DNA of 64,000 nucleotides from Actinomycetes bacterium (GTDB lineage: Bacteria > Actinomycetota > Actinomycetes > Streptosporangiales > Streptosporangiaceae): assembly GCA_021793235.1 (NCBI GenBank), contig JAJYTD010000005.1, positions 62,001 through 126,000 of the forward strand, read 5' to 3'. Every line of letters begins with the position of its first letter. The first letter of the stretch is position 1. Under the pieces are notes generated by a model. It saw only the letters and a list, made by a program, of their open reading frames with translations, searched no databases and had not been told where the DNA came from. Made by a program: the position numbers and the translations under genes. This document shows, piece by piece, positions 2,151 through 8,872 of this stretch.

Positions 2151-2588
2151 GTGAGTACCGATCTCCCGCGGCAGATTCGGGCATCGGACGCCGACCGGGA
2201 CACGACGGCCCAGCGCCTGTCGACCGCGCTCTCCGAGGGCCGCCTCACCCTCGACGAATACAACCTGCGGCTTGATTCGGCCATGCGCGCCGCCACCATC
2301 GGGGAGTTGGTTCCCCTTACCTCGGACCTGCCCGAACCCGATCGGCCGCAGGACGGCCCGGTCGACTTGGCCGAGGTCGCCGATACGGACAGCAGCCCGT
2401 CGCCGTGGAAGAAGTGGTTCGACGAGTGGCGGTGGTGGCTGGGCGGAGCCGTCATCATGATCGGGATCTGGGGCACCACCAGCATCGCCGACGGAGAACT
2501 CCGACCGTTCTGGCCGCTGATTCCTCTCGGGATCTGGGCCGCGGTCTTGATCGCCGACCTGTTCTTCCCCGACAAGGACGACGACTAG
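2151..2588 (+). CDS. DUF1707 membrane protein, first of three tandem copies
   Basis: The 145-residue product starts with a DUF1707 domain (IRASDADRDTTAQRLSTAL, then LDEYNLRLDSAM). It ends with a two-helix membrane domain beginning EWRWWLGGAVIM and passing through FWPLIPLGIWAAVLI. DUF1707 is an actinobacterial domain of unknown role, often joined to membrane helices or to SHOCT-like segments. GTG 2151 is preceded by GATGAGGGG. It is the first of three related genes lying head to tail; the second copy has nearly the same membrane segment. The function is unknown. Confidence 0.85.
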   Translation: MSTDLPRQIRASDADRDTTAQRLSTALSEGRLTLDEYNLRLDSAMRAATIGELVPLTSDLPEPDRPQDGPVDLAEVADTDSSPSPWKKWFDEWRWWLGGAVIMIGIWGTTSIADGELRPFWPLIPLGIWAAVLIADLFFPDKDDD

Positions 2589-2714
2589 CTGGTCAGCAGG
2601 CGACTTCGCAGCGCACCGGCCCCTTCTTCGAGGCCGGGAGCCGGACCGCTTTCCTGCCGCCGCCACGACGCGTATCGTGGATTAACCCATCATCGGGCCG
2701 GCAGGGGGTGGGCG

Positions 2715-3167
2715 TTGGACGACGAACGCGTCCCGGAAAGCCGAATGCGCGCCTCGGACGCGGACCGTGACGCTTGTGCCCAACGCCTCGCGGACGCGCT
2801 CACCGAGGGCCGGCTCAACCTCGCCGAGTACGAGCGCCGTCTCGACGCCGCCATGCACGCCGTGGTGGTGGGAGACCTTTGGCCGCTGACAGCCGATCTT
2901 CCCGCACCCCCCGCGAAGCGGGACGGCACCGAGCCCACTGCGCCGGCCACGAACAGATCGGCCCTTGTGTCACCGTGGAAGGACTGGGTAGACGAGTGGC
3001 GGTGGTGGCTGGGCGGAGCCGTCATCATGACCGGAATCTGGGGCGTCACCAGCATCATGGGCGGGGTGCTGCTGCCGTTCTGGCCGCTGGTCCCTCTGGG
3101 GATCTGGGCCGCGATTCTGCTCGCCGCCGCTATCTGGCCGGATGAGAACACCGGGACCCGCAGGTGA
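2715..3167 (+). CDS. DUF1707 membrane protein, second tandem copy
   Basis: This 150-residue protein is a close paralogue of its upstream neighbour. DUF1707 is at the N-terminus (MRASDADRDACAQRLADAL; LAEYERRLDAAM). A variable linker follows, then the same EWRWWLGGAVIM...FWPLVPLGIWAAILL two-helix domain. The best start is TTG 2715, preceded by AGGGGGTGGG; the resulting LDDERVPES lines up with MDDEQLPPE of the third copy. The linker between the domains differs strongly between copies while both ends are conserved, which suggests duplication followed by divergence of the linker. Confidence 0.82.
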   Translation: MDDERVPESRMRASDADRDACAQRLADALTEGRLNLAEYERRLDAAMHAVVVGDLWPLTADLPAPPAKRDGTEPTAPATNRSALVSPWKDWVDEWRWWLGGAVIMTGIWGVTSIMGGVLLPFWPLVPLGIWAAILLAAAIWPDENTGTRR

Positions 3168-3198
3168 GCGTCACCCGCTGCCGGAGGGAATGACGGGC

Positions 3199-3678
3199 AT
3201 GGATGATGAACAGTTGCCGCCGGAGCAGATGCGGGCCGCGGACTTCGACCGGGACGCCTGCGCTGAGCGCTTGGCCCGCGCCCTTCAGGAAGGCCGCCTC
3301 GACCTGGAGGAGTACCAGGACCGTCTCAACTCGGCGATGCGTGCTAAGACCATGGGGGAGCTCGTGCCGCTGACCCGCGACCTGCCCCTGCCGCAACCGG
3401 CGGCGGAAAACCAGGCGGTAGAGCGCATACCGGCGGAGGAGAAGGCGGCCGCCCGGAAAGAGCGCCTGGAACCGTGGCGGGGCCTGGCCGCGTTCTCGGC
3501 CGTCCTGGTCGGGATCTGGGGTATCACCAGTGTCATCGCTGGTGTTCCGCTACCGTTCTGGCCGCTGATCCCGGTCGGCTTCATGTTCATGTTCACGCTG
3601 GCGAGCGCTATCAGCGGAGGCGGCGACCCGTCGCGGCACTGCCGTCCCCCGGACCGCAGGGACGGCGACGAAGGGTAA
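3199..3678 (+). CDS. DUF1707 membrane protein, third tandem copy
   Basis: This is the third copy, 159 residues, and the most diverged. DUF1707 runs over residues 1 to about 60 (MRAADFDRDACAERLARAL; LEEYQDRLNSAM). A charged Glu/Lys/Arg linker and two membrane helices follow (LAAFSAVLVGIWGITSVIAG; FWPLIPVGFMFMFTLAS). The EWRWW segment of copies one and two is missing. ATG 3199 is chosen over ATG 3190 because GGAGGG at 3183-3188 is correctly spaced for the former and because it aligns with the start of copy two. The C-terminus is short and hydrophilic. Confidence 0.82.
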   Translation: MDDEQLPPEQMRAADFDRDACAERLARALQEGRLDLEEYQDRLNSAMRAKTMGELVPLTRDLPLPQPAAENQAVERIPAEEKAAARKERLEPWRGLAAFSAVLVGIWGITSVIAGVPLPFWPLIPVGFMFMFTLASAISGGGDPSRHCRPPDRRDGDEG

Positions 3679-4222: not shown

Positions 4223-4435
4223 CGAACCTCCCGATACGAACGAGTGCGCTTCCCCGACGCCCTCGTACCCGCAGAGGAGCTGTCCGTCCCTATTTTCCCT
4301 TGCCTCATTGTGCCCCATGGGCATCATCGGCACCAGGGCTCTCTGGCCGGATCTGGTGTTCTCCCCGTTTTCCCCGGGCTCAGCGGTTAACGTGTAGCGC
4401 GCGAGGCGGGAGCTGAGAGTCTACTGGGGGTATGG

Positions 4436-5017
4436 GTGACTGACCAGCCCTGCGACGAGGTCGCAACAGCCGAGCTGGTGAAACGGGCCCTGGACGAGGA
4501 CGCCTCCGCGTGGGAGGCGCTGATCGACCGCTTCAGCCTCCGAGTGCAGAAGGTGGTGCGTTCCTACGGGCTGTCCGTGCACGACGCGCAGGACGCGGAG
4601 CAGGCGGTCTGGTCCATCTTCGCCGAGCACCTCTCCCGGGTGCGTGCCCCCGAACATATCGGCGCCTGGCTCGCCACCACCACGCACAACGAATGCCGCA
4701 GGCAGTTGCGGCTGTCCCGGCACGCGACCCCGGAGGACCCCGCGCGGCTCGACGTCGTGAACCACCGCAGTCCCGAGGCGCTGCATCTCGCGGCCGAACG
4801 CGACCGCCGGGTGCAGCGTGCCATCGCCGGACTGGGCGAACCCGACCGGACCGTGGCCTCCCTGGAGCTCTACCGTCCACGGTCGCCTGCGGCCGAGATC
4901 GCCGAGTTCACCGGCCTGCACGAGCGCGAAGTGCCCGGCGTCCGGCGCCGGGTGCGCCGGCGGCTGCGCCGCCTGCTCGCCGATGAGGATCAGAAGGGCC
5001 CGCGAGATGAACCATGA
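4436..5017 (+). CDS. Sigma-70 family (ECF-like) RNA polymerase sigma factor
   Basis: The 193-residue protein has a sigma region 2 (AWEALIDRFSLRVQKVV, DAEQAVWSIFAEHL) and a sigma-4-like helix-turn-helix (PRSPAAEIAEFTGLHEREV followed by an Arg-rich recognition helix). Region 3 is absent, as in ECF sigma factors. It should redirect RNA polymerase to a small promoter set. No zinc-binding anti-sigma gene follows. Instead the 3' end overlaps a 184-residue gene by 11 bases, and a TPR-CHAT protease gene comes next. That arrangement suggests control by proteolysis rather than by a classical membrane anti-sigma factor, which is inference. GTG 4436 fits the family length. I found no convincing ECF promoter upstream. 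Confidence 0.85.
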   Translation: MTDQPCDEVATAELVKRALDEDASAWEALIDRFSLRVQKVVRSYGLSVHDAQDAEQAVWSIFAEHLSRVRAPEHIGAWLATTTHNECRRQLRLSRHATPEDPARLDVVNHRSPEALHLAAERDRRVQRAIAGLGEPDRTVASLELYRPRSPAAEIAEFTGLHEREVPGVRRRVRRRLRRLLADEDQKGPRDEP

Positions 5018-5561
5018 CAGCAGCCAACCGGCCGACGGCGGCGGGAACACGGGGGATCCGCTGTTCGAGGGGGTCGAGGGCAGGGCGGCCGAAGACGGGG
5101 ACTTTGCGGACGAGCGTTTCATGGAGGCGCTGCGCGAGGGCCGCGCCCCCGTAGGGCCGATGGCCGCGAAAGTGCGCGCGGCGGCACGCGCCGCCTACGC
5201 GATGCGACGTAGAGACGCGGTCTTCGCCGACATCGGCGACGACTCCGCGGATACCCCGCCAAAAGGCCTGCGAAGTGCTGCCGACCTTGCCGGTACCCCG
5301 CGCTACCTGCGCTTCCACGCCCCCGGCGTTACGGTGAGCCTGGAGGTCACCGTCCTCGACGATCGGCGTGACATCGTCGGCCGCCTCACTCCGCCCGGGG
5401 CCTCTTCTGTCGAGATCCGTTGCCCGCGCGGCATCACCCGCCACACCGACGTCGACGCTGCTGGGGCCTTCATCGCCCGCAGCCTCCCCCGGGGGCCGGT
5501 GAGCATGGTCTTCCACCACCGCACCGACTCCCCCATCACCACCCGCTGGGTGTGCGTCTGA
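5007..5561 (+). CDS. Uncharacterised 184-residue partner of the sigma factor
   Basis: I do not recognise a named domain. ATG 5007 lies inside the last codons of the sigma gene (11-base overlap), so the two are translationally coupled. Residues 1-30 are Gly/Asp-rich. Residues 32-70 form a charged helix (FMEALREGRAPVGPMAAKV, AARAAYAMRRRDAVFADI). The last 90 residues look like a beta-sandwich (YLRFHAPGVTVSLEVTVL, IVGRLTPPGASSVEIRC, GPVSMVFHH), similar in pattern to carboxypeptidase-regulatory-like folds. There is no signal peptide, membrane helix or HxxxCxxC anti-sigma motif. Its position makes it a candidate sigma regulator or protease substrate, which is inference only. Confidence 0.8.
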   Translation: MNHDSSQPADGGGNTGDPLFEGVEGRAAEDGDFADERFMEALREGRAPVGPMAAKVRAAARAAYAMRRRDAVFADIGDDSADTPPKGLRSAADLAGTPRYLRFHAPGVTVSLEVTVLDDRRDIVGRLTPPGASSVEIRCPRGITRHTDVDAAGAFIARSLPRGPVSMVFHHRTDSPITTRWVCV

Positions 5562-5906
5562 ACAGCGTCGGCCGCAAAGGACCGCTCACTCCCACCCGCG
5601 CAGGCCGCACCCATCGCCACACCCTCACGAGGCAACGCCCCGGTGCCCGGCCGGTGCCGGCGCGGCCCCGTCCCGCCGAACAGATCAGTGCGGAAGAACC
5701 GGATCCGCCGCAATGGCGGTTGCGGATGGGTACACACGCGAGAGCAGCGTCCCTTTTACCGGGATTTCCGGGGAACCGATACGCGATCCTTGGGCACGGA
5801 CGTCGAAGTCTCTGTCGGTGAAGTCAGCAAAGTGCTAATCCTGTCGGTGATTCCGCGGTGCGGCCCGCACGGCCGCCCATGAGCATCGACAGTGAGGCGC
5901 TGATAC
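5562..5906 (+). promoter_or_regulatory. Leader region of the TPR-CHAT gene with a 10-bp direct repeat
   Basis: This 345-base gap separates the sigma/partner pair from the CHAT gene. I see no convincing gene in it. It holds an exact direct repeat, CTGTCGGTGA, at 5812-5821 and 5841-5850. The repeats are 29 bases apart, close to three helical turns. Between them is the relatively AT-rich CAGCAAAGTGCTAATC. A GGAAC at 5772-5776 and a CGTC at 5801-5804 resemble ECF promoter elements, but the 24-base spacer is too long. The repeat pair may be an operator. Confidence 0.35.
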
Positions 5907-8399
5907 ATGACGATTTCGCGGTCCCGCGACGTCCATCATCCGCTCGCGCTCATCGCGCAGGACCCGGCGGCAGCTCAGAACCACGCGGAAGACGTGCTCA
6001 GCGGCCGCCCCGACCCCGAGACCAGATCCACCGCTCTGCGGCTCCTCGGCATGGCCCGGCGCGAACTGGGCGACACCGCGGCTGCGCACCGTCTGCTGCG
6101 CCAGGCCGCGGCCGTGGCCGCGCGTGCCGGGCTCGGCGAACCCGCGGCCCACGCCAGGGCTTCCCGCCTCGGCCTGCTCGCGTTGCGCGGCGGTGGCGGG
6201 ATGGCCGGAACATCGTTGGCTCGGCTGGTCGCGGGTACGCCGTCCGCACAGCCGCTCGTCCTCTTCCACCGCGGGATCGCAGCGGCCCAGCAGGGCAGGT
6301 TCGGCGCGGCGACCGCTCAGTTCGACGCGGCCATCGCCCGGCTGGTCCCGGGCGTGGATGACCACCTGCTCCCCGGGCTGCTCTGCAACCTCGGGCTCGC
6401 GCTGATGTACTCCGGGCGGCTGTCCGAATCGGCCGAGGCCCTGCAGCGGGCGCTCGGGCTCGCCGAGGAGCACGCGTTCGGCTCTCTGCGCGGCGTCACC
6501 TTGCAGAACCTCGGCTGCCTGGCGGTGCGCCGCGGCGACCTTCCCAGGGCCGTCTCCCATTTCACCGATGCCGATGGGCTGGTCGCCGAAAGCCGCCGCG
6601 CCTCGCTGCGCCTCGACCACGCCGACGCCCTGCTGGCCGCCGGCATGGTCCGCGAAGCCGCGAGGCTGCTGTCGCCCCTGTCCGATGCGGGCCGTGAGGA
6701 ACCCGCCGAAAGAGCCACCGCCCTGCTGCTCCAGGCCAAGATCGACCTGGCGCGGGGTGAGCGGGACTCCGCCTGGACCCGGGCAGAGCAGGTACGGTGC
6801 GGCTTCGCGGCCGATTCGCTGTGGGCGCAGTTGGCCGATCTGGTGCAGTGGTCGGCACGGCATGTCGCCGACCACGGCCCCGAACAGGGGCAGGACCGTG
6901 CCCGGTGGCGCGGCCCCCGTGGTCTTCTCGGCGACCACGGCAGCGGTGGAGCAGGCGCCGAGGAGACGGCCCGGGTACTTGCTCGCTGCGTTCCGAGTGC
7001 GCCCCTGGGCCCGTTGCCGCTGGTGTTTCCCGCCCCCCACATGGCCGCCCTGCGCGCCCTTGCCGCCGGTGACCACCGAGTCGCCTACCGCGAACTGGTG
7101 CGCCCCTCCCCCGGTACCGGACACCCCTCGCCCGCTCGCCACATCGAACTTCTGGCGCACGCACGCACGCCGCACCGGGAGGTGGCCGCCGCCGGCGCAA
7201 AGATCGCGCTGGGCAACGGGGACGCCGCGATGGCGTTGGAGTGGCTCGAACGCCGGCAGGCGCTCGCCCCGGTTCCCGGCCCCTGCCGGGACAGTTCGTG
7301 GACGGGGCTGCTGGACCGGTACCGGTCGGCGCATACCCGGATCAGCGCCGGAGACCAGAGTGCGCGCGAGGAACTGGGGCGTGTCGCGGCGCGGCTCGCG
7401 GCGGCACAGTGGCATACCGGGTGCACAGCGCCCGCCCTCCCCGCCGGACCGGGCTCCTCTGTCGCCACCAAGCTGGCCGAGCGTTTGGGTGAACGCGCTT
7501 TCCTCTGCTACATCCGGCTTCCCGACACGCACGCGGCGATCACCGTCGTGGACGGCCGGACCGAGGTCCACGCGCTTCCTCCTGCGGCCGAGGTGGAGGA
7601 CGCCGTGGCCAAACTGGCCTATTCCGCCCGGATGAACGTACTCTCCAACGCTCCGTTTCCCGAGCACGGTCCCGCAGGCCCCGCCGCGCTGGTCGACCGG
7701 CTGCTCATCGAGCCCGTCAGTGCCGCGGTGGGCGACCGTCCACTGGTGATCGCGCCCGCCCCCTATGCGCAGGCGCTTCCGTGGGGGCTGCTGCCCGGGA
7801 TGCGCGGTCGGGCGATCAGCGTCGTCCCTTCAGCGCGGGCCTGGCTCACCCGTGCGGGCCGCGTCGGGTACGGGCTCCACCACCGGGCCATGTTCGCCGC
7901 GGGCCGGGATCTGGAAGGCGCTTCGGCTGAGATTCGGTCGCTGCTTCGCCTCCATCCCGGGGCGGTGGCGCTCACCGGGCCTGCCGCCCGCGTCCCCACG
8001 GTTCTGCGGGAGCTGGGCCGAGCAGATCTCGCACATCTCGCGGCGCACGGCTTCACCTCCGCCGAGAACCCCATGCTGTCCGGGCTCCTCCTGGCGGACG
8101 GCCCCCTCCTTGCCTACGACCTGGAGCAGCTGCCCCGGATGCCGCGGCTGGCGGTCCTCTCCTCGTGCTGGGTCGGCGGTTCCACGCCCGCACCGTCGGG
8201 CGTCCCCCTGGGGCTGGCCGCGGCCCTGCTGGCACTCGGATCGGCAGCGGTCGTCGCCGGGGTGCTCCCGATCCGCGACCACGACATCACCGCGGCGATG
8301 GTCGGCTTCCACACCGCCCTGGCCTCAGGTACCGCCCCCGCGCAGGCCGTCGCCGACCACCTGTCCGCCGCGGGTTTCCTCTGCCTCGGCGCCGGGTGA
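5907..8399 (+). CDS. TPR-CHAT caspase-like protease
   Basis: The 830-residue protein has about 350 residues of tetratricopeptide-like helical hairpins (for example FHRGIAAAQQGRFGAATAQF, LALMYSGRLSESAEALQRAL, LGCLAVRRGDLPRAVSHF). The C-terminal part is a CHAT domain of the caspase/separase clan. The expected His-Cys dyad is present: HLAAHG gives His714 and LSSCWVG gives Cys754. These occupy the places of HxxxHG and SxCETG in known CHAT proteases, so the enzyme is probably active. ATG 5907 has GTGAGG nine bases upstream. It follows the sigma/partner pair on the same strand. In type III-E CRISPR systems a TPR-CHAT protease cleaves a protein that holds a sigma factor; the same three roles could be filled here, without CRISPR. 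Confidence 0.9.
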   Translation: MTISRSRDVHHPLALIAQDPAAAQNHAEDVLSGRPDPETRSTALRLLGMARRELGDTAAAHRLLRQAAAVAARAGLGEPAAHARASRLGLLALRGGGGMAGTSLARLVAGTPSAQPLVLFHRGIAAAQQGRFGAATAQFDAAIARLVPGVDDHLLPGLLCNLGLALMYSGRLSESAEALQRALGLAEEHAFGSLRGVTLQNLGCLAVRRGDLPRAVSHFTDADGLVAESRRASLRLDHADALLAAGMVREAARLLSPLSDAGREEPAERATALLLQAKIDLARGERDSAWTRAEQVRCGFAADSLWAQLADLVQWSARHVADHGPEQGQDRARWRGPRGLLGDHGSGGAGAEETARVLARCVPSAPLGPLPLVFPAPHMAALRALAAGDHRVAYRELVRPSPGTGHPSPARHIELLAHARTPHREVAAAGAKIALGNGDAAMALEWLERRQALAPVPGPCRDSSWTGLLDRYRSAHTRISAGDQSAREELGRVAARLAAAQWHTGCTAPALPAGPGSSVATKLAERLGERAFLCYIRLPDTHAAITVVDGRTEVHALPPAAEVEDAVAKLAYSARMNVLSNAPFPEHGPAGPAALVDRLLIEPVSAAVGDRPLVIAPAPYAQALPWGLLPGMRGRAISVVPSARAWLTRAGRVGYGLHHRAMFAAGRDLEGASAEIRSLLRLHPGAVALTGPAARVPTVLRELGRADLAHLAAHGFTSAENPMLSGLLLADGPLLAYDLEQLPRMPRLAVLSSCWVGGSTPAPSGVPLGLAAALLALGSAAVVAGVLPIRDHDITAAMVGFHTALASGTAPAQAVADHLSAAGFLCLGAG

Positions 8400-8503: not shown

Positions 8504-8872
8504 ATGAGCGAGAGCCATTCCGAGCACCCGGGGCATCCCGGCGACCCCATCAACGCCGACGCCTCCGACTGGGAGGAGGCCGGGCGACCGTCGCAGGAGG
8601 ACAGCACTGAGGATCAGATCGTGCCGGCCGACCGGGAGTGGCCCCTGGCCATGGACGAGTTCGGAACCACGGGAACGGAAAAGGAGGCCGGGGAGCCGCT
8701 GGACGTCGCCCTGTCCCGGGACCGCCTGGACACCAGCCACGCCGGCGGCAGCACGGCCCGCTCAGAGGACGAGGTCCCGCCTCCGGGCCCTGAAGACCGG
8801 CTTGAGCGCCGCGAGGCCCACAGCGCCGAGGAGCAGGCCGTCCGTGAGGTGGACGACTCCGAACTGGAGTGA
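8504..8872 (+). CDS. Small acidic DUF5709-like protein
   Basis: The 122-residue product is very acidic and contains no hydrophobic segment. It resembles the actinobacterial DUF5709 family: a tryptophan/phenylalanine-containing core (WPLAMDEFGTTGTEKEAGEP), then LDVALSRDRLD and an acidic EEQAVREVDDSELE C-terminus. DUF5709 proteins are small, disordered-looking and of unknown function. ATG 8504 is preceded by a weak site. It stands alone, 104 bases after the CHAT gene, and converges with the metallo-hydrolase gene. Confidence 0.7.
   Translation: MSESHSEHPGHPGDPINADASDWEEAGRPSQEDSTEDQIVPADREWPLAMDEFGTTGTEKEAGEPLDVALSRDRLDTSHAGGSTARSEDEVPPPGPEDRLERREAHSAEEQAVREVDDSELE

Follow-up and report, generated by a model that had tools for sequence, protein, structure and literature searches.

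Protease-gated anti-sigma switches are already known as a kind. In type III-E CRISPR (clustered regularly interspaced short palindromic repeats) systems, the TPR-CHAT protease Csx29 is accompanied by Csx30 and the sigma factor CASP-sigma; according to the available sections of two papers, Csx30 is a sigma-binding inhibitor that is cleaved within a small flexible loop, either at residues 427-429, where no essential residue was found, or after L407, depending on the paper (PMC10028731, PMC9729208). In the CalpL-CalpT-CalpS system, the protease cuts an anti-sigma factor that holds an extracytoplasmic function (ECF) sigma factor, and in both the Csx30 and CalpT systems cutting can leave a fragment on the sigma factor, for which further breakdown has been suggested (PMC10028731, PMC11417357). 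For the sigma factor group ECF54, whose model member is from Geodermatophilus, a review lists carboxypeptidase, subtilase and CHAT proteins in the genomic context and, in its available sections, files the group under proteolytic control without an anti-sigma factor (PMC8999054). The gene set described here lies in a stretch of 64,000 nucleotides (hereafter the window) of an Actinomycetes bacterium of the family Streptosporangiaceae (assembly GCA_021793235.1, contig JAJYTD010000005.1, positions 62,001 to 126,000), and comprises an ECF-type sigma factor gene, a gene for a small protein named MID, and a TPR-CHAT cysteine protease gene (Table 1). It is considered, with somewhat more confidence than doubt, as a CRISPR-independent and probably cytoplasmic protease-gated sigma switch, in which the CHAT protein would cut MID after Arg89 and so free the ECF sigma factor.

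The three gene families are co-conserved across actinobacterial groups, in line with the belief, expressed in a first-pass annotation of the window, that similar triads occur in other actinomycetes. When synteny was checked, the sigma gene was found directly upstream of the MID gene for 99 of 101 MIDs of the window's family, 66 of 68 from named genomes and 18 of 22 found phylum-wide. A CHAT gene was present in the regions fetched for 94/101, 59/68 and 13/22 of these MIDs, respectively, and a subtilase gene for 68/101, 45/68 and 13/22 (loci were not deduplicated, and some records occur twice, e.g. L135/L210 and L066/L153). When the comparison is restricted to the 147 sigma-MID loci flanked by 4.5 kb or more on each side, 138 have CHAT (104 with subtilase and 34 without), nine have neither gene, and none has subtilase only; locus counts were unchanged on a recount with the HMMER filters off. 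A scan of the named genomes with the sigma alignment returned 80 loci, among which 57 carry sigma, MID and CHAT, nine sigma and MID, and 14 sigma only. The three-gene picture of the first-pass annotation was thus incomplete, since most well-flanked loci also carry a subtilase; it had likewise missed a near-invariant arginine of MID.

This residue, Arg89, was found in 225 of 229 unique MIDs (deduplicated by sequence), and column 89, with 4.2 of 4.32 bits, is more informative than any other in the family; the other columns of the same loop (81-98) hold 0.3-2.2 bits, and the loop varies in length from 6 to 34 residues. In the MIDs that have it, the preceding residue is V, T, L, A or I in 215 and the following one G, S or A in 185, and from this pattern Arg89 looks like a protease site of MID. 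It is present in 187 of 188 MIDs with a CHAT gene in hand vs 38 of 41 without (Fisher test, 0.019), and the four MIDs that lack it are L192, L156 and L099, with no CHAT in hand, and L177, with a shortened loop and a short CHAT ORF (open reading frame). Twelve genomes were searched whole: a related CHAT was found in nine, in seven of them away from MID, and the motif [VTLAIM]R[GSA] is kept in every one of the nine, while the three CHAT-less genomes are Frankiales assemblies of a single family. Of 24 genomes of that family, 11 have MID, and three of these 11 have CHAT. Over 20 different genomes, the motif occurs in 12/12 with CHAT vs 1/8 without (Fisher test, 1e-4, a value that overstates the strength of the association, the eight CHAT-less genomes being one family in which losses are not independent); the exception, locus L326 of genome G546, keeps Arg89 and the motif with no CHAT found in its genome. 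The MIDs of the seven motif-less genomes start near the second helix, as judged by eye (the alignment columns do not settle the start). In the CHAT-less genomes, the sigma gene still adjoins MID in 7/8 and is highly similar, the eighth MID lying at a contig start, and this pairing kept without CHAT is as expected if sigma is the basic partner of MID.

The AlphaFold2 model of MID, built with 61 sequences, has a mean predicted local distance difference test (pLDDT) score of 81.4 and consists of two helices (30-44 and 54-65), a strand (72-79), the loop (80-98) and an Ig-like sandwich (99-184); pLDDT is mostly above 90 in the sandwich and in blocks of 65-77 in the helices and loop. MID has no Pfam match of its own. 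Weak matches to PF13620 (carboxypeptidase regulatory-like domain) were obtained for 41 of 61 MID family members (best 3.8e-4), the MID of the window not being among them, and from these matches the ECF54 neighbour described as carboxypeptidase is probably MID, with a non-enzymatic domain. Fold searches gave no specific match for MID (lowest Foldseek E 0.024; highest Z 8.2, as common sandwiches also give), the helices being barely tested, and its sequence profile retrieved no Csx30 chain from the PDB. The A1 set comprised 23 of the 30 initial MIDs. The A4 set joined 60 of the 64 named MIDs to that of the window and excluded the divergent L128, L141, L156 and L192 (two of them without Arg89), which are all counted in the 229-MID tally; cut or split MIDs (e.g. 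L184) lie outside the 64 named ones.

The sigma gene product, called ECF-like in the first-pass annotation, indeed matches Pfam Sigma70_r2 (E 2.2e-7) and scores above the cut-off of TIGR02937 (47.1 vs 42.9 bits), which places it among ECF sigma factors. A profile of the sigma factor of the window and nine relatives (A2), compared with solved ECF sigma factors, gave RpoE (1or7) as best match (3.9e-16, profile positions 3-166 of 171). The protease matches Pfam CHAT (2.6e-24) and TPR repeats and thus belongs with the TPR-CHAT proteins. Its dyad is intact, as previously read from the sequence: residue 714 is H in 150/151 and residue 754 C in 151/151 of the aligned relatives covering the position (63 partial rows being gapped), and in a larger set these values are 187/188 and 190/190. 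The AlphaFold2 model of the protease (mean pLDDT 86.3, predicted template modelling score 0.84) resembles Csx29 (8eey, Z 30.8, root-mean-square deviation 12.2 over 513 residues), and its protease domain fits separase more tightly (5fc2, Z 26.4, deviation 2.9 over 297 residues). By sequence profile, it matches the Craspase TPR-CHAT protein (8.2e-5) and the CHAT domain of DdvA (2e-12). Sigma and MID have no strongly hydrophobic stretch, and the CHAT protein has a single hydrophobic 19-mer (2.22, starting at residue 768), located inside the modelled CHAT core; the term cytoplasmic is thus inferred.

Taken together, these data are consistent with the following mechanism. At rest, MID would hold the ECF sigma factor inactive, and the TPR part of the CHAT protein would sense a trigger; the separase-like CHAT domain would then cut MID after Arg89, in the loop between its helical N-terminal part and its beta-sandwich. 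The cut is placed there because Arg89 is conserved and the motif is lost in relatives without CHAT. The sigma factor would be freed, directly or after further breakdown of the fragments, to transcribe its target genes. Since sigma-bound fragments can persist in the Csx30 and Calp systems, release may also need a second step here, and the subtilase found in many relatives could provide it; in these relatives the subtilase may be either an additional protease or an output of the switch, and it is absent from the locus of the window. As the Arg89 protease itself, the subtilase is less likely, given the 34 well-flanked loci with CHAT and no subtilase and none of the reverse kind. MID would be both the missing sigma inhibitor and the CHAT substrate.

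Several results weigh against this switch. The N-terminal helices of MID are modelled at moderate confidence only, and no known anti-sigma domain was matched by MID in Pfam, NCBIfam or PDB sequences. Upstream alignments of the sigma gene show no evident ECF-type autoregulatory promoter, and at most housekeeping-like elements. On the protease side, the position of the P1-Arg-binding D2151 of separase, replaced by K670 in Craspase (PMC9729208), corresponds in our reading of the alignment to residue 795 of the window protein, which is not acidic, so that Arg specificity is proposed from the substrate side only; Asp791 (D in 172/190) was set aside as S1 pocket residue, being four residues before 795 and off the separase P1-binding position. 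As for the association of Arg89 with CHAT, the motif was defined after the exceptions were seen, no more than 150 of the 188 MIDs with CHAT in hand have its strict form, the completeness of the CHAT-less assemblies is not stated, and the contrast shrinks when any loop arginine is counted (12/12 genomes with CHAT vs 5/8 without, own tally). No natural sigma-MID or MID-CHAT fusion was present among the loci examined. Coevolution was analysed on 220 unique sigma-MID pairs (effective number 146, reduced alphabet) and compared with clade-restricted permutations: coupling exceeded the permutations in total strength (top-100 mean reached in 0/250, top-20 mean in 1.2%), whereas its maximum, clustering and location did not stand out from them, so that it proves no sigma-MID contact. 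The switch proposed in the first-pass annotation thus gains from co-conservation, from the Csx29- and separase-like model and from the protease-site-like Arg89, and finds no help in localised sigma-MID coevolution.

Other explanations of the locus were weighed on the same data. The protease may act on the sigma factor itself, with no anti-sigma factor, MID being an adaptor that presents sigma to the proteases. This would agree with the review, which in its available sections puts ECF54 under proteolysis without an anti-sigma factor and cites the carboxypeptidase, subtilase and CHAT neighbours (PMC8999054). It is nevertheless judged quite unlikely, as sigma-MID pairs persist in genomes without CHAT and as the near-invariant, protease-site-like loop residue is found in MID (sigma was not searched likewise). 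Hardly more probable is that CHAT and subtilase are effectors of an executioner module, with MID as their shared substrate or inhibitor (a pro-piece) and sigma only driving expression. Two loci speak for it: L305 and L306 (genome G196, contig C7, and genome G474, contig C77) have a single sigma gene, two or three MID genes, two TPR-CHAT genes and two subtilase genes, a composition from which MID also travels with proteases alone and which suggests duplicated modules feeding one sigma factor. So does the arrangement of Micromonospora-type loci, in which the CHAT gene and the subtilase-sigma-MID genes diverge around one intergenic region. Against it, sigma-MID pairs outlive CHAT in one family, and in almost every locus examined MID is directly preceded by sigma, an order that direct regulation fits at least equally.

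The least probable of these alternatives is that Arg89 is conserved for folding or sigma binding and that CHAT has another substrate. In its favour, Arg89 and the motif are retained in L326, and 84% of MIDs have a further Arg at position 99, where the loop ends, so loop arginines can have other roles; however, Arg89 is located in a loop of variable length and is followed mostly by small residues, and the motif is gone in seven of the eight CHAT-less genomes while sigma stays similar. A protease-gated switch with MID as inhibitor and Arg89 as cut site is retained as the preferred explanation.

Compared with the described systems, this proposed switch shares with Csx29-Csx30-CASP-sigma a co-encoded TPR-CHAT protein with a His/Cys dyad, a middle protein and an ECF-like sigma factor, as well as a similar protease fold, and differs in that Csx30 is numbered to 565 whereas MID has 184 residues, and in that the proposed site is an arginine. 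The window showed no CRISPR-like spaced 20-mers, its first 20 kb were free of close direct repeats, and no Cas family was found among the 7 + 6 neighbours scanned, so that the locus is not linked to type III-E systems. CalpL-CalpT-CalpS has the same order of events, from protease to cut anti-sigma factor to ECF sigma factor (the cutting being shown there and inferred here), but CalpL is a Lon-type protease with a SAVED domain, activated by cyclic tetra-adenylate (cA4), and the proteins are of other families (PMC11417357, available sections). In DdvA (PDB 8rot, 8rw5), the CHAT part is related in sequence to that of the window protein, and the fold is TPR-CHAT-like (Z 21.3); going by the title of the entry, DdvA is a transmembrane anti-sigma factor that itself bears the CHAT domain, whereas protease and candidate anti-sigma factor are separate here. 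Separase, which shares the protease-domain fold, cuts after Arg in an ExxR context (PMC9729208), which is not conserved around Arg89. The likeness to ECF54 consists in the CHAT protein, the subtilase and a protein with a carboxypeptidase-type annotation near sigma, with proteolytic control proposed; the proteolytic control put forward in the first-pass annotation had thus already been proposed by the review, in its available sections without an anti-sigma factor, which is the role proposed here for MID (PMC8999054). The sigma factor of the window, a possible ECF54 member, was compared with the group by neighbourhood, with CHAT and MID present and the subtilase absent from the locus.

The system is real and widespread, and no description of MID as an anti-sigma factor or CHAT substrate was found in the literature searched (most subscription papers being outside that search). 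To our knowledge, CHAT proteases are common in bacteria and few have a known substrate. The locus provides a concrete candidate substrate with one predicted cut residue, and a transcriptional output, in 61 of the 68 sampled genera of the window's family. If correct, the proposal would amend the published view that these sigma factors have no anti-sigma factor, bring a separase-like protease into gene regulation beyond CRISPR, and provide a simple assay for what TPR-CHAT proteins sense. A wider picture appears doubtful: a large, CRISPR-independent actinobacterial family of switches made of a separase-like protease, an arginine-cut inhibitor and an ECF sigma factor, with MID as a new, Ig-like-sandwich kind of anti-sigma factor and the CRISPR CASP module as an offshoot of older chromosomal protease-sigma switches.

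Table 1. Coordinates of the sigma-MID-CHAT locus and its features in the window
Feature	Position	Strand	Remarks
ECF-type sigma factor gene	4436..5017	+	193 aa, GTG start; Pfam and TIGR02937 matches
MID gene (184-aa protein)	5007..5561	+	ORF; candidate anti-sigma factor and protease substrate
Overlap of sigma end and MID start (11 bp)	5007..5017	+	ORF coordinates
Arg89 codon of MID, proposed P1 cleavage residue	5271..5273	+	Conservation in variable loop
TPR-CHAT cysteine protease gene (830 aa)	5907..8399	+	Pfam CHAT and TPR, AlphaFold2 model
CHAT domain (residues 595-817)	7689..8357	+	Pfam match
Catalytic His714 codon	8046..8048	+	Conserved in aligned relatives
Catalytic Cys754 codon	8166..8168	+	Conserved in aligned relatives

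The coordinates, lengths and sigma/MID overlap given in the first-pass annotation were recovered unchanged by an ORF check, and the overlap suggests translational coupling of the two genes. In relatives, an overlap of 4 bp is the commonest junction (52 of 118, the start codon being taken as the one nearest the sigma stop, which biases the count towards overlaps). The window lies on contig C52, and its 4.8-Mb assembly gives one Pfam CHAT match in all; the named loci nearest to this one are from Streptomonospora, Allosalinactinospora and Nocardiopsis. Likewise in accordance with the earlier reading, the neighbours scanned (three DUF1707 genes, the gene at 8504-8869, the DUF3145 gene and seven metabolic genes) include no recognisable anti-sigma gene of the zinc or membrane type. 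Apart from the gene at 8504-8869, downstream of the CHAT gene and without family match, these neighbours are ordinary (DUF1707, DUF3145, ATP-grasp, inositol monophosphatase, metallo-beta-lactamase fold, enoyl-CoA hydratase, phosphodiesterase, CoA ligase, PfkB). A search for defence systems with PADLOC gave only a weak BovA match in the CHAT region (1.1e-4) and none for sigma or MID, and a defence-system reading was not adopted.

No subtilase was found in the first 20 kb of the window. The sole S8 match of this genome is on another contig (genome G000, contig C99, locus L259), and was missed by the profile of the locus subtilases with HMMER filters on (2.8e-17 with filters off). It lacks the usual HGT and GTS motifs. 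We take it to be a mycosin-like protein with signal peptide and membrane anchor; given this appearance and the missing motifs it was not adopted as the missing subtilase partner, for which it stays a candidate. In Micromonospora loci of the L139 type, the subtilase gene is upstream of sigma, and some of the subtilases have N-termini that we presume to be twin-arginine-like, which would mean export; none of 170 subtilase ORFs exceeded the hydrophobicity threshold. The CHAT ORFs of the Saccharothrix loci L158, L177 and L194 match the later part of the profile only, so their TPR part is shortened or broken.

In the wider distribution, MID was found in 87 of 100 genomes and 61 of 68 genera of the window's family (own genome counted), longer regions being taken for 100 of 115 matches in other genomes. 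By profile, it was found in at least 24 of 296 genomes across the phylum (own genome counted), and in 35/61, 7/35, 5/51 and 1/3 genomes of further family samples, each centred on a MID-bearing genome, which is counted; the profile searches scored part of the first-look candidates, and MID absences in the 296-genome and four family samples are upper bounds. Locus L129, labelled Acidobacteriota, is probably from a misbinned contig, because it shares about 93% identity with the Actinomycetes locus L127 over long stretches. A single ORF of L307 with MID and subtilase matches runs antisense through CHAT and was taken as an open-frame accident.

Between the DUF3145 and sigma genes, the element CGGTTAACGT (window positions 4384-4393), which is part of a block partly conserved in 15 aligned related loci, may be a -10 element of housekeeping type. 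Three DUF1707 proteins are encoded in tandem (2151-3678) upstream of the DUF3145 gene, which is divergent, and a similar gene is found near the triad in the loci of six close relatives.

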